This document shows, in pieces, positions 1 through 21,400 of a stretch of 64,000 nucleotides of DNA (the first letter of the stretch is position 1; each line of letters opens with the position of its first letter). The translations under genes were made by a program, and so were the position numbers. The DNA comes from a virus. The notes beneath the pieces were generated by a model. It was not told the DNA's origin, did not search any database, and saw nothing but the letters and a program-made list of their open reading frames with translations. The stretch is from positions 1-64,000 of the IMG/VR virus record IMGVR_UViG_3300001782_000005; one strand, 5' to 3'.

Positions 1-714
1 AAAAAGCTGTCTCATTGGAATGCTAAAAATTTTGGTATCATTCATTCAAAGTCTCCCTATCTATTCTTTTGTGATGCTCATTGTATTATTGGTAGGGACT
101 GTCTTTTCAATATGTTCATATATTACAAGAAGAATGAAGAAGAGTTACACGGGTCGCTTCACCTTCCGATCTCGTACATGATGGAACGCCCCGGTATGGA
201 GTTGATTTATAAACCTAAACTTGATCTTGAGAAAGGAGCGCTACACTATTCATTTAGTAGGTATAGACGACCGTCTGATGGAAAACCTTATAAAGTTCCC
301 TGTATGTCAACCTGCGGGATGTTAATGAGTAGGAAGATAATGGTTGATGAACTTCAAATGTGGCCGAGTGAACTTGGAATCTACGGAGGTGGAGAAAACT
401 TTGTAAACTATTGTTTAGCAGTAATGGGTTATAACGTAAATATTTTTCCAAGACCTGCAATTTATCACTATGCAGAGCAGAGAGGGTATCATTGGAATTA
501 TAATGATTGGTTGAGAAATCGAATCATAGCCTTATATCTTGCTTGTGGTAGAGAGATAGCACAAAGGCTAGTTGATAATGCGAGGGGCCACCAGCAAGTA
601 AAACAAGACATGCTGGAGGATGTAGTAATCAAGTGCAACCCCCAACGAGAACATATTAAAAAGAGAACGTGTGTGGATATTTACGAATGGGTTGAACGCT
701 GGAAAGATTTTTAG
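1..714 (+). CDS. Glycosyltransferase, polypeptide GalNAc-transferase-like (5' end outside window)
   Basis: The reading frame is open from base 1, so the gene starts upstream; 237 residues are visible. The visible part resembles the catalytic half of GT-A fold polypeptide GalNAc-transferases. FFCDAHC (residues 22-28) matches their DxH metal/UDP motif, and GIYGGGENF (about 126-134) matches their WGGEN acceptor-loop motif. A His-Tyr follows at about 156, where the family has a conserved His. The family transfers a sugar from a nucleotide sugar to Ser/Thr of a polypeptide. There is no lectin domain; the protein ends soon after the catalytic region. The next gene encodes a protein full of poly-Thr linkers, which suggests (inference) that the phage glycosylates its own fibres. 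It could instead be a generic GT2 enzyme acting on host glycans. Confidence 0.72.
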   Translation, partial: KKLSHWNAKNFGIIHSKSPYLFFCDAHCIIGRDCLFNMFIYYKKNEEELHGSLHLPISYMMERPGMELIYKPKLDLEKGALHYSFSRYRRPSDGKPYKVPCMSTCGMLMSRKIMVDELQMWPSELGIYGGGENFVNYCLAVMGYNVNIFPRPAIYHYAEQRGYHWNYNDWLRNRIIALYLACGREIAQRLVDNARGHQQVKQDMLEDVVIKCNPQREHIKKRTCVDIYEWVERWKDF

Positions 715-721
715 TTTATTG

Positions 722-782
722 TATAAATACCTACAAGAGTTTGTACAAATAGATACAAGACCAGTTAATAGGGGGAACAGTT
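722..782 (+). promoter_or_regulatory. AT-rich leader before fibre 1, with T4-late-like TATAAATA and a degenerate GAACAAA-type motif
   Basis: The short gap before the first fibre gene holds TATAAATA at 722-729, identical to the T4 late -10 box, and GTACAAATAGATACAAG about 20 bases later. The second resembles the RGAACAAA motif seen before other structural genes here but lacks the GA. Either could drive the fibre cluster. The TATAAATA box is not repeated at other gene starts, so it may be chance. Confidence 0.3.
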
Positions 783-3700
783 ATGCTTGCAACTTATATA
801 TCCAGCAATCAGTTTCGGGTCTCTGGTGATCGAAGTGCTGAATTTCAAACAGATAGAAGGGTCCGAGCTAATTGCGGGATTGATGGATATAAATATGGTA
901 CGGTACAGTCCGCTAGTTTTAGCGCTGGTTACACAACTGTAACCCTCTTAGAAAGTGAACTAACCTCAAATTTAACTGCAGTTCACTATGGCGTTGTATC
1001 ACCATTTCCTCCTGGTAGTATGCCAAGGATCCCTGGTTTAGCAATTGTCTATGACCAAGAGGTTTCAGCAGTTGAGTTTATTGAAATAACTGGTCTAGCC
1101 TCTGGTCAAATTTATGACCTTTCATTATTACTTACTACCTCTGAAGTAACTGAACTTCGTCTTCAATTTAATGGTGACACTGGTAACAACTATCAGTATG
1201 CTTATCACGATGGTGGAGTTGCTGGTGGTGCGCCATCTCACTCAACTAATCAGAGTGGAGCAATAGATTATATTCAATTTAGTCATAAGTGTGATGTAGG
1301 TACGGGTCGGGTTCAATTTGGAGCAAAACCAATTGATTCAACAGCAGTTATTGTGCACTCATCCTTTTCTACATATCAAGATAGTAATGATTTTATGAAA
1401 AGAGAGTTAGTAGGTTATTACGCTGGTGGTCTTAGTAGTATTAAGATTTATGCTGCTCCAGGTAGCACTAGTTATTTAAGTGGCCGTGTAACCTTAACTG
1501 CACAGGAAGAAGCTATTCCAACCGAGACAACTACGACTACAACGACTGTTTCAACTACACTTCCACCTACTCCTACTACTACGACAAGTACAACTACAAC
1601 GTCAACTACAATTACTCCTGCTCCAACAACCTCTACAACTACGACAACCACTACATCAACTACAGTTACAGTTCCTACGACAACTACAACTACAACGACT
1701 GTAACTACGACGACTACTACTACAACCGCACTTATTACGACTACGACTGCTCCTTCGTGTATCTGGGAAGATCATATGGATGATGGAATAGTAACACCAC
1801 CTTGGACACCAATGGGCGCTCCAGTTGAAGCAGGTACAACTGTGATATTCCAAGGTGTTGGTACAGGTTATATGGATTCAGGACCTGTTCCGTTTGATTG
1901 TTCAAGTTACTACCAGACACAAGCTAGAGTAAGAAATAATGAAAGTGTCTCAAGTCATATTATGAGTCTACTTGATATGAGCAGTGGTCCTCCATATCAA
2001 ACTGTTGTACGAATATGGTCAAATACAACTGGTACATATATTGAATATCAAGATTCATTTGGAACCACTTACTGGTGGGATGGTCTTGCTTGGACAATTG
2101 TTGGACTGACGCCTGCTGGACCACCTATTCCAGATAATATTTACTTTAGATTTGAATTTCAATTTGTCAAAGGGAATTTGATAGTTAATATTTATGACTG
2201 CACTATGGGTATTTTTATATCTACTGGTGCTTCTCCTGTGCCATGTGCTACTCTCATGGGTGGTGGCGGTCCACTTACTGGAGTCTATCTTGGAGCATAT
2301 GCTGGATTCGGACCTACTAATACTTTCTATACAGAAGTTGATTGGTTTGGCTTTGGTTGTATACCAGGTTCTTGGCCGCCTTGTATACCGTACACGACTA
2401 CAACAACCACTACGACTACTACAGCTGCTCCGACTACGACTACGACTCCTCCCGGCGAGTGGGTATCGAAATTTGGTTCTCCGAATTTCTGGGTTTGTGC
2501 TGTTAACTGTACTTGGGATGGAGATTCATATAATGTTGCAGGTCCTGGTCTACAGATTAATGCCGCCGGTACTTGGTATGTCGGTTACAGACCAACAAAG
2601 ATTAGAATTACTGCGACGAACAATGCTTCGAAAGGTTGGACCCTTAGGTTAAGAGATTCTGGAAATTCAACTATAGCAACACTTCTTATACCTAACGGTG
2701 CTTCTCAGGTTGCTGAGGCTGATATTGGTTGGTTTACTAAGAATTTAAATAATATTGTAGATGATACTGCTCCTGGTATTGGTCAAATTGAGAATATTGA
2801 ATTCTGGGAAGTTGGAGCAACGACAACCACCACAACTACTACAACTACAACTACGACATTTATTACTACTACCACAGCTCCTTGGGCGTGGGGCGATCAC
2901 TTTGATAATGGCATAGTGGATACTCCTCCCTGGTCAGTAACAGGTGCTCCGGTTGAAGCAGGAACGACTGTTGTAATAGATGATATTAAGACTAATGAGT
3001 GTCTAGTTACTATGTTTGCTTATGAAACTGGTATGTGGGCGAGATGTCAAGCAAGAGTAAGAACACCTGGATCATCTAGAACTACAGTTATGGGTCTTAC
3101 TGATCCTGGTGGGGCTGGTCCTGTTTTAAGAATTGAGGTAGATCAAGGTTTGTGCTACGTCTCATACTACAGTATGGGAGCAGGACCTGCTTGGCTCTAT
3201 TGGGATGAGAAGAGTATGGGTTGGATACCACCTCCAACTCCTCTTACATCTTTTGTTCCAACTATGAATATGTATTATCGTTATGAACTTCAGTCTGATG
3301 TGAACACAATTTGGGTTAATATTTATAATTGTGCTGGTATACTGTTGTTCACAATTCCGCCATTAGCTGGTGCACCGTGGGCAGATTTACCTCCTGCATA
3401 TCTCTATGTGATGTTGGGTGATTGTGATCCAGTATTCTTTGATAATTACACTGAGGTTGATTGGTTCGGGTTTGATTTGAGGTACTGGCCACCATGTCTG
3501 CCATATACGACTACAACGAGTACAAGTACGACCACTACAACAACTACTGCTATTCCTACTACAACGACAACTTCTCCCCCAGGTGAGTGGGAAGAGAAAT
3601 TTGGATCACCAAGTTTCTGGACATGCGCAGCTAACTGTACTTGGGATGGAGATTCGTATAATGTTGCAGGTCCAGGTTTAGTAATTCAAGCAGCAGGAAC

Positions 3701-4646
3701 TTGGGCAAATGGTTATCGACCAACAAAGATTAGAATTACTGCAACCAATAATGCTTCAAAGGGTTGGAACTTACAGTTAAGAGATAGTGGTGGAACTCCA
3801 CTTGCAACTACGGTGGTTCCGAATGGAGCTAGTCAAGTTGGTGTGGCTGATATAACTTGGGGCGCTAAAGATATGTATAGGATTTATGATTTAGATGCAC
3901 CAGGTACTGGAGAGATTGAGAATATTGAATTCTTCGTAGTTGGGGCTACTACAACCACAACAACAGCTCCTCCGGCTACAACGACTACAACTACCACGAC
4001 ATCTGCTCCAACCACAACGACTACTCCTGTTAGTCCCCTTGTGGCTTGTGATGGTTCTGTTTTTACTGATAATTTCTCAAGTATTACGGCTGATTGGTCT
4101 GAAACAGATGCAAGTAACATTGCATCACCAGGAGCTAACGGTTATGAGCATATTGTTCACGCAATAGATTTTGCTAGATTAATTGGTCAATTTGATATAG
4201 GTGGTGATTTCGATATCTGTCTGGAAGTAGATATATATGACCTTGGTTCAGCTCCCACTATCAGTACTTATATGCAATTTGCCTTGACTGAGGGTGTTAA
4301 AGGTGGTGCAGAAGCTTATGTCTGGATAAGAGGTGACGGAGCTGGTGGATTTGAGTATTATCTAGACGGAACTGATAATTTCAATTCTTGGGGTTCATAT
4401 GGGACAATAGATGCAACCAGTACTCACTATATCAGATTTACTAGAAGTGGAACTACTGTAACTGTTTATGTATGGAACCCAGCTATAGGATGGGAGTGGA
4501 ATGGAGTTCCTGGTGGTCTAGCAAGCACTAGTACATGGGATGTTGACCCCACTCCTACATTACAGTGGAGAGATAATAATCCTCCTACTGATCAAATATC
4601 TGGTACTATGGTCTCATTTAAGATCAATGTTGGAACCAAAATCTAG
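783..4646 (+). CDS. Modular Thr-rich tail fibre/adhesin 1 (1287 aa)
   Basis: The N-terminal domain (about 1-245) resembles phage fibre attachment domains, with the phrases FRVSGDRSAEF and GTVQSASF. A Thr/Ser linker follows (about 249-323). Then comes a tandem duplication of two beta-sandwich-like modules. Module A begins WEDHMDDGIV in copy 1 and WGDHFDNGIV in copy 2. Module B begins GEWVSKFGSP in copy 1 and GEWEEKFGSP in copy 2. Poly-Thr linkers separate the copies. The C-terminal domain (about 1090-1287, starting VFTDNFSS) is concanavalin-like and recurs at the ends of two other fibres in this window. No catalytic motif is visible; binding to host surface glycans is inferred. The start has an AGGGGG ribosome site. 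The stop overlaps the next small gene by 20 bases. Confidence 0.8.
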   Translation: MLATYISSNQFRVSGDRSAEFQTDRRVRANCGIDGYKYGTVQSASFSAGYTTVTLLESELTSNLTAVHYGVVSPFPPGSMPRIPGLAIVYDQEVSAVEFIEITGLASGQIYDLSLLLTTSEVTELRLQFNGDTGNNYQYAYHDGGVAGGAPSHSTNQSGAIDYIQFSHKCDVGTGRVQFGAKPIDSTAVIVHSSFSTYQDSNDFMKRELVGYYAGGLSSIKIYAAPGSTSYLSGRVTLTAQEEAIPTETTTTTTTVSTTLPPTPTTTTSTTTTSTTITPAPTTSTTTTTTTSTTVTVPTTTTTTTTVTTTTTTTTALITTTTAPSCIWEDHMDDGIVTPPWTPMGAPVEAGTTVIFQGVGTGYMDSGPVPFDCSSYYQTQARVRNNESVSSHIMSLLDMSSGPPYQTVVRIWSNTTGTYIEYQDSFGTTYWWDGLAWTIVGLTPAGPPIPDNIYFRFEFQFVKGNLIVNIYDCTMGIFISTGASPVPCATLMGGGGPLTGVYLGAYAGFGPTNTFYTEVDWFGFGCIPGSWPPCIPYTTTTTTTTTTAAPTTTTTPPGEWVSKFGSPNFWVCAVNCTWDGDSYNVAGPGLQINAAGTWYVGYRPTKIRITATNNASKGWTLRLRDSGNSTIATLLIPNGASQVAEADIGWFTKNLNNIVDDTAPGIGQIENIEFWEVGATTTTTTTTTTTTTFITTTTAPWAWGDHFDNGIVDTPPWSVTGAPVEAGTTVVIDDIKTNECLVTMFAYETGMWARCQARVRTPGSSRTTVMGLTDPGGAGPVLRIEVDQGLCYVSYYSMGAGPAWLYWDEKSMGWIPPPTPLTSFVPTMNMYYRYELQSDVNTIWVNIYNCAGILLFTIPPLAGAPWADLPPAYLYVMLGDCDPVFFDNYTEVDWFGFDLRYWPPCLPYTTTTSTSTTTTTTTAIPTTTTTSPPGEWEEKFGSPSFWTCAANCTWDGDSYNVAGPGLVIQAAGTWANGYRPTKIRITATNNASKGWNLQLRDSGGTPLATTVVPNGASQVGVADITWGAKDMYRIYDLDAPGTGEIENIEFFVVGATTTTTTAPPATTTTTTTTSAPTTTTTPVSPLVACDGSVFTDNFSSITADWSETDASNIASPGANGYEHIVHAIDFARLIGQFDIGGDFDICLEVDIYDLGSAPTISTYMQFALTEGVKGGAEAYVWIRGDGAGGFEYYLDGTDNFNSWGSYGTIDATSTHYIRFTRSGTTVTVYVWNPAIGWEWNGVPGGLASTSTWDVDPTPTLQWRDNNPPTDQISGTMVSFKINVGTKI
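1528..1752 (+). repeat. ACN low-complexity tract encoding Thr/Ser linker
   Basis: About 225 bases of almost pure ACN codons with interspersed Ser and Pro codons encode a mucin-like linker. All four Thr codons are mixed, so the protein is repetitive while the DNA avoids perfect short repeats. Confidence 0.9.
1756..3945 (+). repeat. Tandem duplication of a ~1.06-kb A+B module pair inside fibre 1
   Basis: Copy 1 is about 1756-2820 and copy 2 about 2880-3945. Each copy holds module A, a short poly-Thr linker and module B. Copies share GAPVEAGTTV in A and NCTWDGDSYNVAGPGL and GYRPTKIRITATNNASKGW in B. Module A has diverged more than module B. Confidence 0.85.
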
Positions 4647-6835: not shown

Positions 6836-9800
6836 ATGGCTTGGGATAATGTTATAAATCTGTTTATAGATTCTTCTAAGGTTGATGAGAATCTTACAGA
6901 TTTTCCAGTTGCAATTGACTTAAGTAATTTTCCAGAGGTTTTTGTAGAGTTAACGGAAGCTGACCGAAAGAAAATTAAAGTCACAACTGATGCCTCCGGA
7001 AACAACCAATGTTATGTTGAGATTGAGTATTTTGATTCCACCGCTCAGGTTGGAATAATTCACACAAAACTTCCTGCCATTGATTCCACTGCAGATACTT
7101 CCTTCTATTTCTGGTATGATAAGGATGAAGCAGATAATACAACCTACGTTGGTGATATTAGTGAATCTCCTGCTCAAAATGTCTGGGATAATAATTTTGT
7201 TATGGTTATTCATCCACAAGATCCAAGTGGTAATGGAGTGGATGATATTAAAGACTCAACTAGTAACTCTAATGACGGAACTCCATTTAATTTTGAAGCT
7301 GGAGATCTTGTTGAGATTGGTGGAGGGATTCCTGGTCGAGCAGTTGTTTTTGAAGAAACTAAAAATCAACGTATTGGAGTGCCACACCACTCCACTTTAG
7401 CACCCACTCGCCTTTGCTTAGAGGTATTTGCAATCAATGAAAATCCAGCGTGGGATGGGCCTAATTGGAATACTAGATCAGACCATTTAGTTTCAAAAAC
7501 AGAAGCTGGTGGATATGCAGTAGGTTTGAATGAGTCAGGTTCGTATTGTACTGACCATTTATACTTTGACGTTTATAGAAACGGAACTTATGGTCGAGCG
7601 TGTGAACCATCATCCAATATTTCAGATGGGTGGCACTATGTTGCTTGTGATTATGATGGAAGATACGGTGTCCTTCAGATTGATGATACTGAGGTTCAGA
7701 TAAATGATGCTGGAGGAACTTATGATATTACTTATTCTAATAGTAATATGCTTCAAATAGGTTGTGAAGCTGGTCCAGGAACTAGTCCTCCAAGTCCAGC
7801 TCTGCTCTGGGAGGGCAAGATTGGTGAAGTCAGAATTTCTAATGCTTCCCGACCTGATGCTTGGAGAAAGGCAACATATCACAATTTATTTGGAACTCTT
7901 TTAAGGCAAACATGGACAACTACCACTACTACAACCACTACAACGACTACTACATCAACAACGACTTCTACAGCGAGTACTACCATTCCTTATTTTCCAA
8001 CAACAACTACGTCTACTACTACGACAACTTCTACCACAACCACTACAACTACGACAACAACAACTAGTACAACTACAACAACTTGTCCTCCTTTAGAGTA
8101 TGCCCTTGATCCTTCTTATACTAGTGCCGATATAACTCTATCTAACTGTAATTTAACAGCCACAAGTACTGGTTGGGATGGTGGTTGGGATACTACTTAT
8201 GCCGCTCCAGGTTTCCCTGTAGCAAGTGGCGGCAAATGGTATTGGGAAATTCACATTGATGTTGGCGGTGGCCAAATGCTTGGAGTTGAGAAGCTCCGAG
8301 AGACAAACAATCATGTAGGATCGAGCGCTGCTGGTTATGGAATACTCAACAATGGTAGTATATGGAATGGTAATTCTCAAGCTGGTGATTTGGGAGCTGA
8401 TTACGTTACTAACGATATAGTTATGATCGCACTAGATCTTAATAATCTTAAGCTCTGGTTTGGTCGTAATGGTAGTTGGTATGGAGCTGGTGCTAATCCA
8501 GCAACTGGTACTAATCCTGCATTTACTATCGCAAGTGGTGGGACTTACTATGCCGGATTTAGTTTGGGCGGCGGCACCGATAGACAGATAACGGTCAATT
8601 TCGGGGAGACATCATTTACCCATACTCCACCTTCTGGGTTTAATGCTCCTGAAGATTATACTACCACCACTACTACAACTACAACTAGTACAACTGTACC
8701 ACCAACGACTACATCTACGAGCACGACTACTAGTACAACTACAACTAGTACGACAACAACTACACTTCCTCCAACTACTTCAACAACGACTACTACAACC
8801 ACCACAACAACCACTACAACGACAACCTCTGCAACTACGACCACCAGTACGACTACCACAACGACAACCTCTACGTCGACTACTACTACGTATCCTCCTG
8901 GTCAACTAACGTGGGACCCAACCTGGAAGGCTGCACAGTTACAGTTATTCAATAGTAACCTTACTGTTAAATCAAATGCGAGTGGTTGGAAATCTGTGGG
9001 TGGAACACTTGGAAGAGCGTTTGGTAAGTGGTATTGGGAGATCACAATAGATGTTATGGCTAGCGGAAATAGCCATATGACGGGTATTGCTCAAAGTGGC
9101 CACCTTGTTGAAAACCGCTACCCTGGTCAAGAAACTACTAGTTATGGTTATTTTGATAACGGTCAGAAGTATCACAGCGGTGGTGGTTCTGTTTATGGAA
9201 ATAGCTATAGTGAGGGAAATATAATTGGAGTTGCTCTTGATTTGGATAGCGGTAAAATTTGGTTTGCTGTTAATAATGTCTGGCAAAATAGTGGTGATCC
9301 TGCTGCCGGAACAAATGCGGCTTTTAGCGGGATAGCTTCAGCAACTTGGTATCCATTTCAAGGAATTTACGACTCAGGTGACCAATCCTCAATAAACGGG
9401 GATTCTGTGACTCTAAACTATACCCCACCAACTGGATATTCGGCCCTAGGTGGAGAAAGTGTAACAACGACCACGACTACCACTAGTACGACTACGACAA
9501 CTTCCACTTCAACAAGCACGACTAGTACAACAACCACAACAAGTACGAGCACAACTACGACAACTCCTCCTCCGACTACTACCACAACAACTACTACAAC
9601 GACAACTAGTACGACAACAACGACAGCAACGACAACAACTAGCACGACAACTACCACTACATCTACAACTACAACTACCACAACTAGTACGACAACAACA
9701 AGTACTAGTACAACAACGACTACACCTCCTCCAACCACAACCTCAACTTCTACGACGACGACTACAACCAGTACGTCAACATCAACTTCTACCTCGACAT

Positions 9801-12800
9801 CTACAACTACTTCAACGAGTACGTCGACTTCTACAACTAGTACGACTACAACTTCTACAAGCACGTCTACCACAACTACTACTAGTCCTCCACTCTTTGA
9901 AATTAATGAAAGTTGTACTGATTTGTACGGTTCAACTCGTGTGTGTCAAAGTGTTACTCCAGATAGAACTTTCGAGATTACTAGTATAGTTATAGGATCG
10001 TGTCGAATTGTAGGTACTTCTGGTACAGCTAGACTAACTATATATACCTACCATCCTACTAATCCATATAGTGGAGTACTTTTAGGTACTTCGGATGATG
10101 TAGCTATTACAACTACTCCCACTACTCTTACATTCACTTTTGCTTCTCCTGTACAGATAGGAGCAAAATTCTGGGTGGTCATGGAGCCATCTGGAACAGC
10201 AACAAATGCTTATACGTATAGGACTAATTTTAATGCATACGCAGGTGGTTCTATAGGTTACTCATGGGATGATGGTGTAAATTGGGCTTTTGATGCCTTC
10301 GATATGTGTGATATTAAGATCTATGGTAATGATCTTGGCCCAACTACAACAACTACTACAACTTCTACTACTACAACTACAACTACAACCAGCACAACTA
10401 CAAGTACGACAACCTCTACGTCGACCTCGACAAGCACAACTACTACAACTACAACCAGCACAACTACAAGTACGTCAACTACAACCAGTACGACTACAAC
10501 CACAACAACTTCAACTTCTACAACTACAACCTCAACTTCCACTAGTACGACTACAACTTCTACAACAACTAGTACTACGACGAGTACTTCAACGACTTCC
10601 ACTAGTACGACTACAACAACAACTTCTACTAGCACGACGACGAGTACTTCAACGACTTCCACTAGTACGACAACTACAACCAGTACGACAACAACTTCTA
10701 CTAGCACGACGACTACTACAGTTCCTCCAACTACTACAACGTCAACCACAACATCGACTACCACTACTTCAACGACCTCTACTACGACAAGCACTACGAC
10801 AAGCACGACTACCACAACTACGACAACTACAACTTTACCAATTGTCTCGTTTGTAGATGACTATTTTGATAACGCTGTCATTGATGCTTGGTGGCACCAA
10901 GAGCCTGGTTCTACTGGTTCGTTCGTCGAAGCATCGTTAACTATAAATAGTAGTCAAGAGAATATTTTAGCTGGTGGTACAGCAGACTTTAACTGGCTAT
11001 ACCAGGGTATGATTGCTGGAGATTTCGACGTAGTTGCTAAGTTGATTAGCCTTACAAACTTCAATCAAAATCAACAGATAACTGGTTTAGTTGCTTATGT
11101 AGATAATAATAATTGGGCAGCAGTAGGAAAGAAATACTACTTTGGTCAACAAGCGTGGGTTACTCACAGGGTAGGTGGTCCTTACCATGAGAACTATACT
11201 GCTGACACAAACCTACCGTTCTTCTTGAGGATTAGAAGGATCGGTTCTCTATTTGAGACTTTCTACTCAACAAATGGAATAACTTGGACTCCGTATGATC
11301 CTGTTGCTGGTAGTCTTGATAGTACAGCTAATGTTAAGATAGGTCTATTTGCTAATGATCAATATACTACACAATTTAGTGCAGAGTATGACTTTACTCT
11401 TAATAGTGGTTCATTTATAAGTACAACTACAACGACGACAACTAGCACGACAACTACTACGACCTCGACATCTACGACTACAACCACTGCTCCTTGTCCA
11501 GAGTATACTTATTGTGATTCTACTTGTGCTCCTTGCTATGAATTAACTCTCAGTGGTTGGTCTGGATCTTGTGATTTAGCTGATTGCTCAGCTCTTAATG
11601 ATACTTATATCTTAGAACCATATCATGGCCCAGGTGGATGTAAGTGGGCACATTATCTTGGTGTTCTATATGACGATGATAATGAGATAAAGATAACTTG
11701 TGATTATGGAATCTGGGAACTTAGAGTAACAGTAGATGCAACCGCTTGCCTGATATTTGAGGCTGATGCAGTTGTAAATACGTGTCCTCCAGAAGATTAC
11801 ATTTCTTGGACACAAGTGGGTGGAGATTGTGTAGGTGGTTCGTTTACTCTTGTTGGACAACCTTGTCCAACTACTACTACGACTACGACTACGACAACTA
11901 GTACAACTACAACCACAACAACTAGTACAACGACTACTACGACTACTACGACTACTTCAACCATCACTACGACTACACCGCCTGGCATTCCATATGGAAT
12001 CTGTGCTGATACGTCATTCGGTGGAGCGATGTATCGAGCTAATCAACTGACTTGGTCTGATGCACGTGACTCAACTGCTGCTATTGGTCAAGTATTACTA
12101 AATGCAATTGCTACTGGCAATGCAATTAATGTTGTTCACTATCAAAGTAAGGGTACTGATTATTACAATCTTTGGAGGTTCTACTTTAGATTTGATTTAA
12201 GTAATATTCCACTCGGAACGACTATTACAGATGCAAGAATTGGTTTGTATTGGCCCACAGATATTCCTGTAACTACCCCTGCACGCTGGGTAGTTCAGCA
12301 AGGCCCAACAACATTTGATCTTGACGATTTTGGTGGGTTTACTGGACCTGAATTTGGTCATATGCTTTTTGATCCAGATCAGAAATATAATTATGTTTAT
12401 TTAAATTCTGCTGGAAGAGCATATTTAGAGAGCCAAATCGGTGGATATGCGTATCTTTGCCTCCGTGAGTATCATCACGATTATTTAGATGTGCCGCCAG
12501 TTTTCGAGAACCTTAAAACTTATTCAACTTTTTCAGAACCACCACTTGCTAAGGTGGATGTTTATTATGATCCTGATTTAGTCCCGTGTACTTGGTTATC
12601 AAGTTATGAATACGATGTAATTGATAGGTATAAACCAGGTACAATACATGATTTACACTCTGTTGCTTATGGTAATGGCAGATATGTTGCAGTTGGTGAT
12701 GGTGGGAAGGTAATTACCTCTACTGACGACGGAGAAACTTGGATTCAGTTATCTACTTTTACATCTGAAGATCTATTTGTTGTAAGGTATCTGAATTGTA

Positions 12801-15181
12801 CTTGGTTTATTGGCGGACGAAATGTAATTTATACTTCTCAAAATGGTACTAATTGGTCATATAGAGTAAACCCTGCAAATGGTTCAGGTAGAATTGTCCG
12901 AGGATTTGCTTGTAATGAAGGCGGATTAATTGTTGCTGCTGCATGGTCTCATACTATTGAAGAACGCTCTTCTTATTCTACTGACGGAGGACTTACGTGG
13001 ACTGCCCTTCCTAATGGGTGTCCAGATATGTTTAACTTCACTGATTTAGTTTATGGTGATGGAATATTTGTTGGTTGTGGTGGCTCCGGAGTTACTGTGC
13101 CAAGATTTACATATTCATATGATGGACTTAATTGGAGCGCTGCTGATGAGTGGCTTGCTGATAATGCCGTTTATGGACTTGCTTTTAACGGTAGCAGATT
13201 CTTTGCTGTCGGTTCACCAGGTCGTGCTTGGATATCAGATGATGGTGTAAATTGGACTAGGACTTCTCAAGCAGAGGGTGCTCCACGTCTAGATTATGAA
13301 GATGCTTGTTATGGTGTGGTATGGAATGGATGTCAATTTGTAATTGCAGCACATGATACCAGTTCTTCAGATCGTCAAAAGATTATAACAACCTTAGATG
13401 GTTATCAACCATTTACATATGAATATGACCAAGATAGTGGAGAAAGCGGATTAACTGCCATTGCATTTGATGGTATAAGTCGTCACGTACTTGTGGGTTA
13501 CGATGGCCAGGTTTTAACTGCTGATATTCGTACAATAACCACGACTACAACTACAACTATTACTATACCGCCAATAACTACAACTACAATTTGTCCACCT
13601 GATCTAACTGAGGATGATTTTAATGATGGAGCAATAGGTTCTTGGTGGACTCTTAGGGACAAACAAGGTGGAGATTTTGTTGAATCCGGTGGGTATATGA
13701 ATATACTCTCTGGCCCAGATGGATGTGATGCAATAGATCCATGTACTCCAACTTACATTGCTCAGTGTATTGACCCAAATAGACCGTATGACTATTGGGT
13801 TAAAGTTCTCACTCCAACCCTTACTTATGATGGTCAAGAGTATGGTGTGATGTCTAGAAATCTTGCTAGTCTTGATATCTATACTAAAATTGGAGTAAGA
13901 CGAGAAGGTGGGTCTTTATATGTTTATGGTTTGTATTCTGAAACTGGAACTTTAATTGACCAGATAATTCCTCTTCCTCTTGGTATCCCACAAGTTTGGT
14001 TAAGAATATCTAGAGATTCGGGAGGGCTCTTTAGATTTTACTATGCTTTGAGTCAACCTTATTCTATATCTGATTGGACAATACTTAGTTTGGTTAGTGG
14101 GGTATTTACCGATAGTGATAGGCAGAGAGTTGGTCTGTTTGCTACGAACCCATTTCACACAACTACAACGACAACTACAACAACTACAACTACAACAACT
14201 AGTACACTTACAACAGTTAGTACGACAATACCACTCACACCAAGTACAACCACAGTTACATATGCAAGTACTACCACAACGATTACGGATTTTGGTTTAT
14301 GGCAACCTGACTGTACTGGAACTCCTGGTTATCATACTGGTTTACAAGTCTCACAAAGTGTCTATGTTGATCCAGGCACTTGGAAATTTGACGCAATTGA
14401 AATTGGTGATATGGTTAGCACGAGCGGTTATGCTAAAGTTATAATTTATCGAGATACTGGAGGAAATCCAGCCAGTGGAATCTATGTGGGTCAGACAGGA
14501 GTACAGCCAATTTCAGGAGGTTTAGAACCCTATACTTTTTATCTTACTGTTCCTCGACCTATTGTCATTAGTCAAGGGTATGATTATCACCTTGTTGTTA
14601 CTGCTACTGATGCTGGAGGAAATATTGCATACGGACAGACAGTAACCCTATACGCATCTGCAGAGCACTATCCACCAGGTCTAATGTGGTATTATGACGA
14701 GGGAGGTGGTGGTTGGATACAAGACTCTTCTTCAGATGCCTTATGTATTTTTGCACGTGGAATATTAGTTTATACACCTGATCCACCTAGCGGGAATCAG
14801 TGTGAAGATAGATGTGCTTACAGATATTATGTAACGGTATCTGGTTTAACTGGAACTTGTGGATCTTATGATTGTAGCGTATTTAATGGTACCTATGTTT
14901 TGGATCGTCGTCCGAGTCTTTGTGAGTGGAGGCAAACAATAGAAACCGAAATTATGGGGAATCCAATCACAATAACTGCGTCTATAACTATTGGTTATTG
15001 TGGAATTAATTGTTATCTATGGTTATTTAGTATTGGCACCTCTGGATCTGGAACTTGTGGTCTCGCTACTCAATTTGTAACATTACGTGAAGAAGGTGAG
15101 AATTGTCCTCCATTAACCGGATGGTGGAGTGATCCCGGAGCTTGTAATTATGGGGGAACAATTATAGTGTCGCATAGCTAG
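6836..15181 (+). CDS. Giant modular Thr-rich fibre/adhesin 2 (2781 aa)
   Basis: The largest gene in the window. Modules in order, with approximate residues: DUF2341-like (1-125); LamG/concanavalin-like (130-355, SDGWHYVACDYDG); Thr linker; SPRY-like 1 (420-607, GKWYWEIHIDV); linker; SPRY-like 2 (689-875, GKWYWEITIDV); a linker of about 140 residues; beta-sandwich D1 (1020-1167); a linker of about 165 residues; concanavalin-like E1 (1335-1528); linker; Cys-rich F1 (1554-1675); linker; DNRLRE-like (about 1717-1920); BNR/propeller-like (about 1935-2235, ITSTDDGETW); E2 (about 2255-2440); linker; D2 (about 2487-2650); Cys-rich F2 (2654-2781). The modules are typical of carbohydrate or protein binding; no enzyme active site is evident. 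AAAGGGAG precedes the ATG. It is probably a distal fibre or receptor-binding protein. Confidence 0.85.
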   Translation: MAWDNVINLFIDSSKVDENLTDFPVAIDLSNFPEVFVELTEADRKKIKVTTDASGNNQCYVEIEYFDSTAQVGIIHTKLPAIDSTADTSFYFWYDKDEADNTTYVGDISESPAQNVWDNNFVMVIHPQDPSGNGVDDIKDSTSNSNDGTPFNFEAGDLVEIGGGIPGRAVVFEETKNQRIGVPHHSTLAPTRLCLEVFAINENPAWDGPNWNTRSDHLVSKTEAGGYAVGLNESGSYCTDHLYFDVYRNGTYGRACEPSSNISDGWHYVACDYDGRYGVLQIDDTEVQINDAGGTYDITYSNSNMLQIGCEAGPGTSPPSPALLWEGKIGEVRISNASRPDAWRKATYHNLFGTLLRQTWTTTTTTTTTTTTTSTTTSTASTTIPYFPTTTTSTTTTTSTTTTTTTTTTTSTTTTTCPPLEYALDPSYTSADITLSNCNLTATSTGWDGGWDTTYAAPGFPVASGGKWYWEIHIDVGGGQMLGVEKLRETNNHVGSSAAGYGILNNGSIWNGNSQAGDLGADYVTNDIVMIALDLNNLKLWFGRNGSWYGAGANPATGTNPAFTIASGGTYYAGFSLGGGTDRQITVNFGETSFTHTPPSGFNAPEDYTTTTTTTTTSTTVPPTTTSTSTTTSTTTTSTTTTTLPPTTSTTTTTTTTTTTTTTTSATTTTSTTTTTTTSTSTTTTYPPGQLTWDPTWKAAQLQLFNSNLTVKSNASGWKSVGGTLGRAFGKWYWEITIDVMASGNSHMTGIAQSGHLVENRYPGQETTSYGYFDNGQKYHSGGGSVYGNSYSEGNIIGVALDLDSGKIWFAVNNVWQNSGDPAAGTNAAFSGIASATWYPFQGIYDSGDQSSINGDSVTLNYTPPTGYSALGGESVTTTTTTTSTTTTTSTSTSTTSTTTTTSTSTTTTTPPPTTTTTTTTTTTSTTTTTATTTTSTTTTTTSTTTTTTTSTTTTSTSTTTTTPPPTTTSTSTTTTTTSTSTSTSTSTSTTTSTSTSTSTTSTTTTSTSTSTTTTTSPPLFEINESCTDLYGSTRVCQSVTPDRTFEITSIVIGSCRIVGTSGTARLTIYTYHPTNPYSGVLLGTSDDVAITTTPTTLTFTFASPVQIGAKFWVVMEPSGTATNAYTYRTNFNAYAGGSIGYSWDDGVNWAFDAFDMCDIKIYGNDLGPTTTTTTTSTTTTTTTTSTTTSTTTSTSTSTSTTTTTTTSTTTSTSTTTSTTTTTTTSTSTTTTSTSTSTTTTSTTTSTTTSTSTTSTSTTTTTTSTSTTTSTSTTSTSTTTTTSTTTTSTSTTTTTVPPTTTTSTTTSTTTTSTTSTTTSTTTSTTTTTTTTTTLPIVSFVDDYFDNAVIDAWWHQEPGSTGSFVEASLTINSSQENILAGGTADFNWLYQGMIAGDFDVVAKLISLTNFNQNQQITGLVAYVDNNNWAAVGKKYYFGQQAWVTHRVGGPYHENYTADTNLPFFLRIRRIGSLFETFYSTNGITWTPYDPVAGSLDSTANVKIGLFANDQYTTQFSAEYDFTLNSGSFISTTTTTTTSTTTTTTSTSTTTTTAPCPEYTYCDSTCAPCYELTLSGWSGSCDLADCSALNDTYILEPYHGPGGCKWAHYLGVLYDDDNEIKITCDYGIWELRVTVDATACLIFEADAVVNTCPPEDYISWTQVGGDCVGGSFTLVGQPCPTTTTTTTTTTSTTTTTTTSTTTTTTTTTTSTITTTTPPGIPYGICADTSFGGAMYRANQLTWSDARDSTAAIGQVLLNAIATGNAINVVHYQSKGTDYYNLWRFYFRFDLSNIPLGTTITDARIGLYWPTDIPVTTPARWVVQQGPTTFDLDDFGGFTGPEFGHMLFDPDQKYNYVYLNSAGRAYLESQIGGYAYLCLREYHHDYLDVPPVFENLKTYSTFSEPPLAKVDVYYDPDLVPCTWLSSYEYDVIDRYKPGTIHDLHSVAYGNGRYVAVGDGGKVITSTDDGETWIQLSTFTSEDLFVVRYLNCTWFIGGRNVIYTSQNGTNWSYRVNPANGSGRIVRGFACNEGGLIVAAAWSHTIEERSSYSTDGGLTWTALPNGCPDMFNFTDLVYGDGIFVGCGGSGVTVPRFTYSYDGLNWSAADEWLADNAVYGLAFNGSRFFAVGSPGRAWISDDGVNWTRTSQAEGAPRLDYEDACYGVVWNGCQFVIAAHDTSSSDRQKIITTLDGYQPFTYEYDQDSGESGLTAIAFDGISRHVLVGYDGQVLTADIRTITTTTTTTITIPPITTTTICPPDLTEDDFNDGAIGSWWTLRDKQGGDFVESGGYMNILSGPDGCDAIDPCTPTYIAQCIDPNRPYDYWVKVLTPTLTYDGQEYGVMSRNLASLDIYTKIGVRREGGSLYVYGLYSETGTLIDQIIPLPLGIPQVWLRISRDSGGLFRFYYALSQPYSISDWTILSLVSGVFTDSDRQRVGLFATNPFHTTTTTTTTTTTTTTSTLTTVSTTIPLTPSTTTVTYASTTTTITDFGLWQPDCTGTPGYHTGLQVSQSVYVDPGTWKFDAIEIGDMVSTSGYAKVIIYRDTGGNPASGIYVGQTGVQPISGGLEPYTFYLTVPRPIVISQGYDYHLVVTATDAGGNIAYGQTVTLYASAEHYPPGLMWYYDEGGGGWIQDSSSDALCIFARGILVYTPDPPSGNQCEDRCAYRYYVTVSGLTGTCGSYDCSVFNGTYVLDRRPSLCEWRQTIETEIMGNPITITASITIGYCGINCYLWLFSIGTSGSGTCGLATQFVTLREEGENCPPLTGWWSDPGACNYGGTIIVSHS
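8656..8898 (+). repeat. ACN low-complexity tract encoding Thr/Ser linker between SPRY-like modules
   Basis: About 240 bases of ACN codons with a few Ser and Pro codons join the two SPRY-like modules of fibre 2. Confidence 0.9.
9461..9890 (+). repeat. Long ACN tract encoding a ~140-residue Thr/Ser linker
   Basis: Thr and Ser codons with three internal Pro-rich breaks (TTTTPPPTTT type). The breaks look like joins between fused shorter linkers, perhaps where modules were lost. Confidence 0.9.
10338..10837 (+). repeat. Longest ACN tract, encoding a ~165-residue Thr/Ser linker
   Basis: The tract includes internal near-repeats at the DNA level, for example CTTCCACTAGTACGACTACA near 10536 and again near 10596. 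This suggests expansion by slippage or unequal recombination. Confidence 0.9.
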
Positions 15182-15215: not shown

Positions 15216-18194
15216 ATGTCATGGGTAGACAGAACCTCTGATGAGTATTGGGTAGCCGCTCGTGGGGCCGCCTGGAATGCAGGTGGTTGGTGGGATGTAC
15301 CTGGTACGGATACTGTAGAATTGCAGGACAAGGGCAATTGGGCAGAGGGGTTCCGTCCGACTCTTATTAGAATGACTTTTAGTGGAGGTGCAGTTAATCA
15401 ATTCAGAGGTGAGGACGCCTCACCAAATACAATTTGGTATAATGGTTCGTATACTAGCGGAACTTCAGTAGCAATTTCTTGGTCAACAAATGATTTATTC
15501 GCATTATTGTGGTATGCACTTAAAGATCCTCCAGCACAGATAACGAAGATTGAATTCTTTGATCCTGTTATAACCACTACTACTACGACTATGCCTCCTT
15601 GCGGTATAGATGAACCACAATCTGACGATTTTAATAATAGTTCTTTAGAGCCATTTTGGACTTGGCAAGATGTATCTGCTGTAGGAAGTTACGTTGAGGA
15701 AAATACTTATTTAAAAATAACTGCTGGAGATTGGAATAAAGACGATGATCCAATTCCACCAGCTCCTACTTGGGTTTACCAAGATTGTACTTGTGCTTTT
15801 GATATTAACACAAAGGTTCTATGGCCTGAATCACCTCTTGCTAATTATCAGGAATTTGGGATAACTGTTTCAAATTATTACCCGGGCGCCACAAGTTATT
15901 ACCATGCTTCAGTAGAATTTTACTATATAGCTAAACCAGGCGAATACAGAGTAAGAGCAAGTATAATAAGTCAGGTTGGCACTTCTAGTCCGTCAGTTAC
16001 TTGGACTGGCACGCCCGGTGATCCAATATATCTTAGACTTACTCGAGATCCTAGTGGTTTAATAAAATTTTATTGGAGATTAGAAGGTTCTCCTACTTGG
16101 TCAGAGATATCTGTTTTTGACCCACCTTATATAAATGGTTGGTCACAAGTTGGTCTTAATGCTCAATATGCTTCAAGTTTTGGCGCTGCACAATATGATA
16201 TTAGATTTGATTACTTCTTATCTGAACTGCCATCTACTACTACTACCACGACTTCAATAACTACGACAACTACATCAACTCTACCTGAGCAATTTTATGC
16301 ACAGTTTGATTTCTTTGAAGAGTGGACAGAGGCGAGCACTACAACTACAACTACAGTTACTTGGCCACCTGGAGTTTGTCCAGAGCCTGAGAGATATGAT
16401 CCAAGATGGACTGAGAATTATTTTCATGTCGATTGGCCACAAGAATTTGTATTCCAGTCTAATCATAATACTAAATTAGATCACTGTGGTACTTTTAAAC
16501 CTCATGGATTCTTAGGTTATTATCCTGGTGATTTCTCAGTTGATATGAGATTTGAATTATCTAGACCCATGAGAAATGATGGAGTAGATAGAGATTATAT
16601 TGGACTTGCAGTTAATATTGAGAATCTAAGAACCGTCACTATTGTCTTAACGTCAGATACTCAGCAGAAGGCAAGACGACTTGACAGCGATGGTTGTGTA
16701 TTCTCTGAAAGTTTTGGAACTGTCTATAAACCAACTGAAGTATGGTTAAGGGTTTCAAGAACTGATTCAGATTTTAATACCTACTTTTCATATGACAGGA
16801 TTAAATGGTATGAAATTACAGTCGCAAGTCCTCAAACTTATTCTGGTTTAGTCACAGTTCATTTCGGGGCCTATCATCGTACTGGTGGCCAGAAATTTGA
16901 AGCTAGATACCAATTCTGGACTTTATGGCCAGATGGCCCAAGTTGGTTAAAGTCGGGAGCATATTTACCTCATTTAATTGAGTCTGATGACTTTAATGAT
17001 AATATTCTTGATGATCGTTGGTTTAAGAGACATGGTACTTATTTCAGACCAACTTCTTATTGGGCCGAAGGATGTATCTGGGAAGATGATCAGGTATTAA
17101 AAGTTCAGACAAGTCCAGAAGAATTTTATGGTCCCTATAATGAATTTAATGGAACTTGGGCATGGCAAGATGTAAAAGGATTCTTCAACCTTACTGTGAA
17201 AATCAACGTTATTCCTGGCCTTATTGTTGATGGTTCAGAAATGGGTATTATTGCAAGAGAATTGCCTACTGAAGGGGAACCAACTTGTAGAGTTATTTAT
17301 ACAAAACAGGGTGGGAATTTTTACTTCAAACGTGTTGATGTTCAAGGAAGTGGTTCTAGCAGTGAAACGGTAGTAGCGGCTGGTTCTCTTAGTACATTCT
17401 GGTTGGGATTAAGGTGGTATAAAGATGGTTTCACAGCAAGTTATTCTTTGAATGGAATTAATTGGAATCCAATAGCTGCTCCAACTTCTCCAATTACTCC
17501 AACCAACTGGTTACAAGTTGGCTGTGCAGCGAAAGGTTGGACTGAAGTGGGTCCGACCACGACGACAATTACTGTGACAACTACTACTCTATCGACTACT
17601 ATACCTCCTACCCCAACTACGACAAGCACAACTACCACAACTGGTACGACAACATCTACTAGTATAATGACTACTACTAGTACAGTTTGGTATGAGTCGT
17701 TTAATGGTAGTGATGGGGATCCACCGAATCCGGCATACTGGGTAGAGCATGACTCGGGTGGAGTTATGTCAATTCAGAGTAATAAATTAAATTTTGATTC
17801 TTCTTCAATTTTTGCAGAGCATTCTTGGGTTGAAGGAACTTTCCTTATTAGTGGAGATATTGATATAACACTTGAATATGATTGGGATACATTTATGCCA
17901 GCTGTAAGTGGAGATAGTTTTGCTGCTAGATTATTACTTTATAAGGTTCCGGCAGAACCTACAACTCCAAGAGTAGTCATTGGAGTGTACTGGGGAGCTG
18001 GAGATCCTAGTCCAGTATTTAGAGCACATAGTTGGCCAGATGGTAATATAGATTCTATTCAAGTTGCACCGTCTTCGGGGAAATTTAGGATAACAAGAGT
18101 TGGTGCTGTGTGGAAGGCATACTACGAAATTGGATCTGGTTGGGAGTGGGATGGAAATCCAGCAGGGTTAACTTTTTTTAGAGACTTATATTAA
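15216..18194 (+). CDS. Modular Thr-rich fibre/adhesin 3 (992 aa as read; 3' end probably frameshifted)
   Basis: Modules: B-type beta-sandwich (1-118, GYRP-like NWAEGFRPTLIRMTF and ITKIEFF); concanavalin-like E modules at about 127-345, 385-580 and 588-780; a Thr linker; and a terminal C-type module (about 828-992). The frame stops at FFRDLY in the middle of the C-type module. Removing one T from the T7 run at 18173-18179 restores an open frame to 18291 ending VSRVEIEFLQGNAG...NNLILYQGAIL, a natural end for this domain type. So the gene is either truncated by an extra T, or the extra T is a sequencing or assembly error, or the frame is shifted during translation. Thr linkers here are fewer and shorter than in fibre 2. 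Confidence 0.8.
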   Translation: MSWVDRTSDEYWVAARGAAWNAGGWWDVPGTDTVELQDKGNWAEGFRPTLIRMTFSGGAVNQFRGEDASPNTIWYNGSYTSGTSVAISWSTNDLFALLWYALKDPPAQITKIEFFDPVITTTTTTMPPCGIDEPQSDDFNNSSLEPFWTWQDVSAVGSYVEENTYLKITAGDWNKDDDPIPPAPTWVYQDCTCAFDINTKVLWPESPLANYQEFGITVSNYYPGATSYYHASVEFYYIAKPGEYRVRASIISQVGTSSPSVTWTGTPGDPIYLRLTRDPSGLIKFYWRLEGSPTWSEISVFDPPYINGWSQVGLNAQYASSFGAAQYDIRFDYFLSELPSTTTTTTSITTTTTSTLPEQFYAQFDFFEEWTEASTTTTTTVTWPPGVCPEPERYDPRWTENYFHVDWPQEFVFQSNHNTKLDHCGTFKPHGFLGYYPGDFSVDMRFELSRPMRNDGVDRDYIGLAVNIENLRTVTIVLTSDTQQKARRLDSDGCVFSESFGTVYKPTEVWLRVSRTDSDFNTYFSYDRIKWYEITVASPQTYSGLVTVHFGAYHRTGGQKFEARYQFWTLWPDGPSWLKSGAYLPHLIESDDFNDNILDDRWFKRHGTYFRPTSYWAEGCIWEDDQVLKVQTSPEEFYGPYNEFNGTWAWQDVKGFFNLTVKINVIPGLIVDGSEMGIIARELPTEGEPTCRVIYTKQGGNFYFKRVDVQGSGSSSETVVAAGSLSTFWLGLRWYKDGFTASYSLNGINWNPIAAPTSPITPTNWLQVGCAAKGWTEVGPTTTTITVTTTTLSTTIPPTPTTTSTTTTTGTTTSTSIMTTTSTVWYESFNGSDGDPPNPAYWVEHDSGGVMSIQSNKLNFDSSSIFAEHSWVEGTFLISGDIDITLEYDWDTFMPAVSGDSFAARLLLYKVPAEPTTPRVVIGVYWGAGDPSPVFRAHSWPDGNIDSIQVAPSSGKFRITRVGAVWKAYYEIGSGWEWDGNPAGLTFFRDLY

Positions 18195-18324: not shown

Positions 18325-18420
18325 ATGAAGATTTACAAAAAGGTAGTCATAGACATTGAATCAAGTAAGATCTTGGAAGAAGTGTCTTACGACTACAACG
18401 GTCCTATCGCTCAAATGCAG
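18325..18420 (+). repeat. Duplicated leader plus 32-codon tag, copy 1 (copy 2 at 23059-23154)
   Basis: The two 96-base tag-coding segments differ at only a dozen or so positions. The preceding 30 bases, including GATAGGATCTAGATGAAGAT, are also nearly identical, so leader and tag were duplicated together. Confidence 0.9.
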
Positions 18421-21400
18421 GGTTCCTGGGTATCACATTTTCTTAATGATGCAAGTGGATGGCAGTGTTATTTTCAGTGTAGTTGGACTGGTTCTTCTTG
18501 GGTACCAAATACTGTCAACATGGGTATTAGAACCAATGTTAGTGCAGTATGGCAAATAGGTTATAGACCTGAGAAATTTAGAGTAACAGTTACTAATATT
18601 ACAGATACTCCAGTACAGTTCTCTCTTACAGATACTGGTTTTACTCCTATTGGTACAACCCCTTCGATTACTGTACCAGGAACGTATGAAGGTACTATTA
18701 GTTGGGCAGGAAATGATATATACCACCTAGACGAGATTCAGTCATCTACTGGTTTTGAAATAACAAATATAGAATTTTTCGAGGGAGCTACAACTACAAC
18801 TACAACAGTAGATCCTTGTTTGTTTCCCCCTGAGTTGATAGTTGATGGAACTGCAGCTCAGGGTAATATAGAGTTTCTAGGAGAACTTGATTGTTGGTAC
18901 TTTGATGCTACGTCAGCTAACAGATATATAATTGAGACGCATTTTGATGGCGGAATTAGTGATACAGTAATAAGTTTAAATGGGCCAGATGACCCAGACC
19001 TTTTTATAGAAGAAAATGATGACGGTGGCGTGGGGACTATGTCCAAGATTGATAGATACTTGGGCATAGGGCGCTATTATGTAAAGGTCTGGGACTATGA
19101 CAACGATGATACTGGTACGTATTTAATTGACATCCGGACTGGTGTTTGGCCAACAACAACAACTACCTCAACTACAAGTACTAGCTCAACGACGACCACA
19201 ACTACTTATCATCAATCGTATCCATATGACGATGGTTGTGGTTGCTTAGCTTCTACTCCACCAGGATTTGGAAATACTTCGGCCCCTAAACCTTGGCACT
19301 TCTATGAACCAGGTTTTGACAGACATTGGGTAGGTAATCCTCCACACTATGCATACTCTGATGATCAAGGTAGAACATGGACTGATTTTCATTTAACTGG
19401 TCCTGAAACTGCTACTGGTTGGGCCATGGTTGATCTTAGTCCAGCTAATGCTTATTTCTATATTTCAAATGCAACAGATGGAATTAATTTTGGCTGGATG
19501 GCCATAAGCAAAGCAACTGGTGCAGCTACTTTTATGGCGGCCGGTACAGCAGCAGGCACAAGAAGTTCATCTATTGTTCAAATTGCTGCTCCTGCTGGAG
19601 TTCAATTTATAACGATGGGGTTAATACCTGGGCCGGCCTTCTCACTGGGAGAGCATAATGATATATTTGGCGCTTACTGGTACGCTAGTAGGGGGACAAT
19701 AGCAGCGCCATATTCTGGTCAAACTGAGTTAATTAGACTTGATTACGATAGAGCAATGTCGTTTGCAAGAACGACTAATGGAGTATATAGCGCAATAGCC
19801 CATATTGTGAGCGATCCACCAGGAGGTCCACCCGTGTGGGGTATTGACGGCCTTACTGGAGTTCAACATATTACAGAGACTGCTGGAATGGACTTTACTG
19901 ATCCTGGTGGGTGGCCAAATAGAGTAAGCGCCTCTGTAGATCCAACTGGCAATGTTCACGTCTTTTTCAGCAAGTTTACTCCTCCTGAAGGTATATACTA
20001 TTCTCGGTGGTCATTTGTATCAGGATGGAGCACGGCGGTTAGAGTTTATGATGATACTCCAGGAAATGTCTTCTCTTTCTATAACCAGCGTTTAGCTCCT
20101 CCAGGTAATGTTGTAGGTTTTGTCACTATCGTAAGCGCCCCTTCTGGATGTCCCGATGATCCCTTCAATCCACCATATTATACCAACTATGTAGGGAGAG
20201 TAAGTACAACTGGAGGGTTTACTTGGAATGAAGGTTGGTTCTGCGGTCAATGCTGGGGTGGAGAATTAGTACCACCTTCTCTTCCTTACCCCTTAACAGC
20301 AGTAGATCAAGTGTCAAGTCTCAACCACTATGGGTGGGATACTAGATGCCCAGCATATGCATATTTAGACGGTTTAACTAGTAGATTTATACATTTTGGA
20401 GAACTTACTTATGGTATAACAACTACTACTATTACTACCACTACGTCAACTACTACTACAAGCACAATAACAACTACCACTAGTACGACAACTACTACAA
20501 CTGCACCGTGTCTAGGTTTAGAGCAAGACGAATTTAATGATACTGTAATAGATCCCAGGTGGGCACTCCAAGATGAAAGAGGAGGAACATTCTCTGAATC
20601 TGGCGGGACACTTCATGTCCATTCAGGTGCAGATGGTTGTAATGCAATAGATCCATGTACTCCAACTTATATTGCTCAATGTGAACCAGCAGGAACAGAA
20701 TTTGATGTTTGGACTAAAATTATAGTTCCTTCATTTACGGGTCAATTTCAAGAGTTTGGTCTCATGTTCAGAGTTTGGGATCAGGAAGATGTCTATGCGA
20801 AAGTTGGAGGTAGAATTTACGGCGGTAATTTATATGCGTTTGCTCTATATTCAAACGTAGGTACTATTAACGATGAAGAGATCCCAATTGTAGCATCTGA
20901 ATTTTGGGTGAGGATACGCCGTAAGTATATTCTTGGGACTCCCCATTTCTCTTATTTTTATTCACTAACTGAACCTATAGTGGAAGGCGATTGGACTCTC
21001 TTTAGTACTATTGATCTATTATTCTATAATGGTTCTAAAGGTTGGGTTGGTCACTATGCTTCATATCCTCTGCCTGCAACAACAACAACGACAACAACGA
21101 CTACTACATCTACATCCACAACAGGTACGGTTATAACCACGACTACTTATTTTGAATTTATAGGAGATTGTCCATGTGGTCAAACTGAGATGCCGCCATA
21201 TGATAGTAATTTTGGTGTCACACATAGGCTGTACAATAGTAATTGGGGACACACTTACTGGGTTGGTTATGACTCTTCTGGTAATGAAAATCCAGGAATA
21301 ATGAGGGATTACACAGACTTAGGCCAGACTTGGCTGATGGACGGTACTGATGCTAAGATTATTAGGTGGTCCTCTCTAGATCTTGGTATTACTATTACTG

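Follow-up and report, generated by a model that had tools for sequence, protein, structure and literature searches.

The window analysed here comprises bases 1-64000 of the 277,131-bp virus record IMGVR_UViG_3300001782_000005 from IMG/VR. It opens with the 3' part of a glycosyltransferase gene, followed by fibre-like genes rich in threonine (Thr) and serine (Ser). The encoded enzyme shares its fold and catalytic residues with the eukaryotic polypeptide GalNAc-transferases (GALNTs, family GT27), lies in one operon with glycan and fibre genes, and recurs with Thr-rich fibre genes. This enzyme-fibre pairing was observed in dozens of uncultured phages, and such phages therefore probably sugar-coat their own fibres. 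On balance, we favour the reading that the gene belongs to a virion-glycosylation cassette, in which the enzyme O-glycosylates the neighbouring tail fibres, chiefly on their exposed Thr-rich linkers.

The glycosyltransferase gene and its fold

The frame at 1-714 (+) is open through the left edge of the window, with no upstream stop, and the gene is cut there. The ends of the record are identical, its final 94 bases repeating the initial 94. Joining them over this 94-bp overlap gave a single ATG-started gene of 313 amino acids (aa), MPELSIVIPF...RWKDF, starting at record position 276810. The same gene was found unbroken, at 100% identity, in two further IMG/VR records, and a third record (L013) carries it at 86%. 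Because two separate records hold a contiguous copy, the joined gene is considered real, and a record-end artefact was ruled out as its origin. The upstream part that was missing from an earlier, sequence-only reading of this DNA was thereby recovered, and the DAHC and GGGEN signatures which that reading had reported in the 1-714 protein were both located. The features of the gene are as follows.

1..714, + strand: GT27-fold glycosyltransferase gene, 3' 237 codons; the 5' part lies at record 276810-277131 (L009:19679-20000)
73..84, + strand: DAHC, the DxH metal-binding motif (D101 and H103 of the full protein), aligned to DSHC of GALNTs
382..399, + strand: YGGGEN (GGGEN at 385-399), counterpart of the GALNT WGGEN segment, with E208 invariant
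466..489, + strand: HYAEQRGY, with H232 (third metal-ligand position), R237 and Y239, all invariant

In Pfam, the only match above cut-off was PF00535 (Glycos_transf_2; E 1.2e-8, 35.5 bits against a cut-off of 23.3). All 20 family members match this model, which is a broad GT-A model unable to tell GT2 from GT27. An alignment of 20 homologues was used as a profile against all Protein Data Bank (PDB) sequences, and the polypeptide GalNAc-transferases ranked first (GALNT10 with E 5e-11, PGANT9, GALNT4), above TarP and other GT2 enzymes. The AlphaFold model of the 313-aa enzyme reached a predicted local distance difference test score (pLDDT) of 93.6, and its best 50 Foldseek matches in the PDB were all GT27. 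With VIA-align, 29 GT27 entries aligned at Z 23.9-28.5, covering 273-289 of the 313 residues, while the closest non-GT27 family reached Z 20.1 and all remaining families stood at or below that value. As a specificity control, a second GT-A enzyme of the same cassette was folded; it reached only about Z 13 against GT27, which was not its best match.

The residues D101, H103, G206, G207, E208, H232, R237 and Y239 are invariant in the 20 homologues, so the motifs are not a product of chance. The DxH motif (as DAH, DSH or DGH) and GGE were present in every member covering those regions. Kinship with the polypeptide GalNAc-transferases, as proposed by the sequence-only reading, is thus supported by the profile search, the modelled fold and the active-site residues. 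Grouping with the GT2 enzymes of lipopolysaccharide pathways did not occur, and a generic lipopolysaccharide GT2 was ruled out as the best description by the fold and the profile ranking.

Over its full length, the model corresponds to a GALNT-type GT-A catalytic domain, with the DxH metal motif and the distal His ligand in place (D101, H103 and H232); the metal-ligand role is taken from Asp209, His211 and His344 of GALNT1 (PMC4202792). The C-terminal ricin-type lectin domain of GT27 was not found, as the 313-aa chain stops at the end of the catalytic domain (the model corresponds to residues 136-437 of GalNAc-T2). Also absent were the GalNAc-binding AGG(L/F) segment and the tryptophan of WGGEN, with MSTCG and YGGGE(N/S/H) in their place. 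The AGG segment contacts GalNAc in GALNTs, and with STCG in its place the sugar donor may differ from GalNAc. Because of this substitution and the missing lectin domain, we use "GT27-fold" rather than "GT27 member". The model and motifs suggest a GT27-fold relative, likely GT27-like in its chemistry (Thr/Ser acceptor), that is not a proven GT27 member and whose sugar need not be GalNAc.

Compared with the GALNTs (GalNAc-T2, T4, T10, T12, PGANT9 and Toxoplasma GalNAc-T3), the enzyme shares the whole catalytic-domain fold, DxH, the GGE segment and the distal His ligand region. It differs in being phage-encoded, in an identity of only about 17%, in the STCG and YGGGE substitutions, and in the absence of a stem or membrane anchor as well as the lectin domain. 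GT2-type O-antigen and wall enzymes (GtrB-like PHROGs, TarP, TarS, SpsA, K4CP) share the GT-A core and the PF00535 match but are structurally less similar (Z 20 or less). To our knowledge, these families do not have DxH, GGE and His/Arg/Tyr in combination.

Thr-rich fibre genes and the recurrent cassette

In the window, the first fibre gene begins 68 nt past the stop codon of the enzyme gene, and five Thr-rich genes were identified. The tail sheath gene shows that the block as a whole belongs to the tail module.

783..4646, + strand: first Thr-rich fibre-like gene, 1287 aa, three long Thr/Ser linker segments (222 Thr, 91 Ser)
6836..15181, + strand: Thr-rich fibre-like gene, 2781 aa, seven linker segments (613 Thr), SPRY domains
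15216..18194, + strand: Thr-rich fibre-like gene, 992 aa, one linker segment, concanavalin-like domains (weak GH43_C2 and DUF1349 matches)
18325..23019, + strand: Thr-rich fibre-like gene, 1564 aa, four linker segments
23059..27273, + strand: Thr-rich fibre-like gene, 1404 aa, four linker segments
29124..31106, + strand: tail sheath gene

Together, the five genes contain 19 linker segments of 1166 residues, including 737 Thr and 149 Ser. All four Thr codons are used in the linkers (293 ACT, 251 ACA, 119 ACG and 74 ACC), and with the controls described below being free of such runs, chance Thr runs or simple microsatellites were ruled out. The earlier statement that Thr/Ser-rich genes follow the enzyme is correct for these five genes and their linkers, although the first fibre gene is split from the rest by genes for a beta-keto acid cleavage enzyme (BKACE) and a GNAT-like protein. 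Additionally, the enzyme gene does not stand alone: further glycan genes are located upstream of it, at the far end of the record.

A scan of 2.9 million contigs yielded 54 loci, gathered from IMG/VR and one metagenome-assembled genome, whose neighbouring genes were clustered. A recurrent, mostly co-directional cassette was observed, with a GT4-like gene in 41 of the 54 loci, a 360-aa protein in 28 and a GT-A enzyme of about 250-290 aa, also in 28. It further includes methyltransferases and additional GT2 and GT1-type genes, and at times an acetyltransferase, an epimerase or a GT9 gene. In many loci, tail genes are followed by the Thr-rich fibre gene, GT4 and other genes, and then by the enzyme gene; in nine loci the Thr-rich gene stops 16-423 nt ahead of the GT4 gene. 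The reverse order, with the Thr-rich gene directly after the enzyme, was found in the window, its close relatives, L014 and L024. Apart from one antisense frame, the Thr-rich genes of the loci share the direction of the enzyme. In the present phage, this block at the far end of the record runs from a tailspike gene through unassigned GT-like genes to radical SAM, GT4 and GT9 genes; two methyltransferase genes come next, then a gene weakly matching DUF4915 and finally that of the enzyme.

A run of eight Thr codons (T8) was present in 30 of 52 enzyme-bearing records and in none of 44 controls (Fisher 4e-11; 1.5e-7 when restricted to records of 10-100 kb). The controls amount to 1.9 Mb against 2.6 Mb of enzyme-bearing sequence; a DxD glycosyltransferase motif served to pick 28 of them and a random 15-mer the other 16. 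By T8 run or open reading frame test, 37 of the 52 records are Thr-rich (27 of 33 among those of at least 40 kb). Backbone groups drawn without the cassette genes numbered 21, of which 15 include a Thr-rich gene. Within one portal family, 5 of the 15 records that have the enzyme nearby contain T8, against 0 of the 14 that do not. These data support a pairing that is more than a one-off coincidence, as it recurs over phage backbones and is absent from controls. The reverse check points the same way: the enzyme was found in 4 of 80 records chosen solely for a 12-Thr run (among the matches listed), 3 of these 4 belonging to the only 54 enzyme loci in 2.9 million contigs. As a separate observation, many IMG/VR phage records contain runs of 12 Thr codons (at least 119 stretches; loci L133-L212), mostly without the enzyme, and some of these phages may use other glycosyltransferases or none.

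The scan of genome contigs revealed one relative (L031), located in a phage tail region. When 297 genomes from the same phylum were searched, one more was found (G358). The latter encodes an enzyme 55% identical, plus a GT4 gene, in a prophage-like tail region (G358:C2:344500-364400, L276), and its fibre is homologous to the Thr-rich fibre of L081. With both relatives in such regions, a cellular, non-phage home of the enzyme was ruled out. Among cultured phages, no close homologue of the window protein was found, only a distant one in Tunturiibacter phage Tunturi_4, whose host is an acidobacterium. This protein, gp2 (PP885687.1 1567-2565; L264), is a full-length homologue (hhalign E 2.5e-22) with a DNH motif and is encoded inside the structural operon. 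It differs in having about 24% identity to a family member and in its position between terminase and portal, in a genome without a Thr-rich gene. Tunturi_4 thus represents a cultured handle for the enzyme family.

Acceptor of the enzyme and competing explanations

The following scheme is what we infer about the acceptor, the sugar, the timing and order of action, and the benefit. The enzyme, predicted to be a soluble, single-domain glycosyltransferase with the GALNT catalytic fold, would form one phage virion-glycosylation cassette with several more glycosyltransferases and methyltransferases. In the cytoplasm, late in infection and before or during assembly, it would use a nucleotide sugar as donor and glycosylate Thr/Ser of the adjacent tail-fibre proteins, most often in their Thr-rich linkers. 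The glycan would then be extended and methylated by the remaining cassette enzymes, with fibre stiffening, protease protection or masking as a possible benefit. More tentatively, and here we lean slightly against, virions across a widespread uncultured phage class may be mucin-like, with the GT27-fold enzyme starting O-glycans on poly-Thr linkers and a dedicated cassette extending and methylating them.

Several observations weigh against the favoured reading. No Thr-rich gene was found in 15 of the 52 enzyme-bearing records; because most records are fragments, a missing Thr run is weak evidence, but six of the 15 are at least 40 kb long. One of the control records, G043, turned out to contain the cassette but no run of eight Thr. 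In G358, the fibre gene that precedes the enzyme and GT4 genes is free of Thr runs, and no Thr-rich gene accompanies the distant homologue in the isolated phage Tunturi_4. Conversely, 76 of the 80 phages with 12-Thr runs (among the matches listed) have no enzyme on their contig. In the statistics, the backbone groups merge at a looser cut-off and are not fully independent, which means that independence is overstated by the p-values; the contrast within the portal family is small, with many short fragments among its records. Finally, the GalNAc-contact segment of GT27 is replaced in the phage enzyme. Since G043, G358, Tunturi_4 and most Thr-run phages break the pairing, the constant partner is the tail-fibre module rather than the Thr linker, and Thr-rich linkers are a frequent, not an obligatory, companion.

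The same exceptions would be explained if the cassette decorated folded domains of the fibre, baseplate or capsid, the Thr runs being stiff or flexible spacers common in the same fibre lineages and not the acceptor. The retention of the G358 enzyme and cassette beside a run-free fibre, the position of the Tunturi_4 homologue, and the many Thr-run fibres found without the enzyme all agree with this explanation, as do the acceptors described for mycobacteriophages, capsid and tail tube (PMC12363180). However, the strong enrichment of Thr runs in enzyme records, across backbones and against controls, would then need another cause, and we regard spacers as an unlikely, though not negligible, explanation. 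Less likely still is a cassette that acts on the host during infection, altering its surface polysaccharide (O-antigen or capsule) to exclude superinfection or change the serotype. Weak PHROG matches to GtrB-like O-antigen conversion, obtained for some members and not for the window protein, point in this direction, and no Gtr partner was identified in a scan that covered part of the cassette genes; the GT9 heptosyltransferase-like gene of the cassette and the epimerase and acetyltransferase genes of some loci could also be read in this way. Against it stand the GT27-like fold and the location of the genes inside the tail/fibre block, where they track Thr-rich fibres. Furthermore, the families that could be recognised in the cassette include neither a flippase nor a polymerase. 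Action on phage DNA or a small molecule appears very improbable: many glycosyltransferases of phages add glucose to modified bases (reviewed in PMC12619734), but here the fold and residues agree with protein O-glycosyltransferases, and the enzyme accompanies tail genes in diverse phages.

Glycosylation of fibre linkers, the reading we favour, had been described by the sequence-only reading as a new arrangement, a description that needs narrowing. According to PMC12363180 and PMC11600133, which cite Freeman et al. 2023, Che8 and Corndog glycosylate their own capsid and tail tube via phage glycosyltransferases, and mycobacteriophages of cluster O encode three tandem glycosyltransferases after an O-methyltransferase gene. 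A phage that glycosylates its own virion is therefore not new in itself. Both systems comprise phage-encoded tandem glycosyltransferases, which there act on the phage's own structural proteins and here, judging by genomic context, would do so as well. Unlike the fibres proposed here, the proven mycobacteriophage acceptors are capsid and tail tube rather than Thr-rich fibres. No relation to these proven virion glycosyltransferases was found, as hhalign detected no homology to Che8 gp109 or gp110 (probability at most 0.2%). Against this precedent, the new elements are the unexpected mucin-type enzyme and its likely target. A full-text literature search, with subscription papers mostly outside it, found no paper on a phage GALNT-like enzyme with Thr-rich fibres; GT27 had been annotated earlier in a Bacillus, where it was called surprising and left unexplained (PMC3178493).

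Should the favoured reading hold, a mucin-type enzyme glycosylates the fibres of phages from many samples, which would change the view of how stiff fibres are, how hosts are recognised and how phages persist. A small GALNT relative, soluble and single-domain, that acts on Thr-rich sequences would also become available, and the finding would bear on the relatives of mucin-type O-glycosylation outside eukaryotes. Mucin-like virions, if real, would represent a viral counterpart to mucin-type O-glycosylation and place GT27-type chemistry in phages.

Neighbouring genes in the fibre block and at the record end

The BKACE gene, at 4914-5810 (PF05853, E 6e-77), lies between two fibre genes, with the GNAT-like gene (5812-6783) directly behind it. 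It is conserved in L013, the 86% relative, and a metabolic enzyme inside a tail-fibre block is unusual. The tail sheath is nearest to those of phiR1-37, AR9 and staphylococcal jumbo phages, with about 28-30% identity; AR9 and phiR1-37 have uracil DNA.

At the far end of the record, the gene directly 5' of the enzyme (L009:18740-19669) encodes a 309-aa protein with a sub-threshold DUF4915 match. It is conserved in L013 and, judging from its sequence, is possibly a beta-propeller. Two radical-SAM-type genes were identified near the cassette and tail genes, one with a SPASM match (L009:13007-13930) and the other recognised by its Cys motif alone (L009:2623-3600). A gene at L009:7081-8193, within this block and preceding its tail genes, showed weak trypsin-like and NAL1-like Pfam matches.
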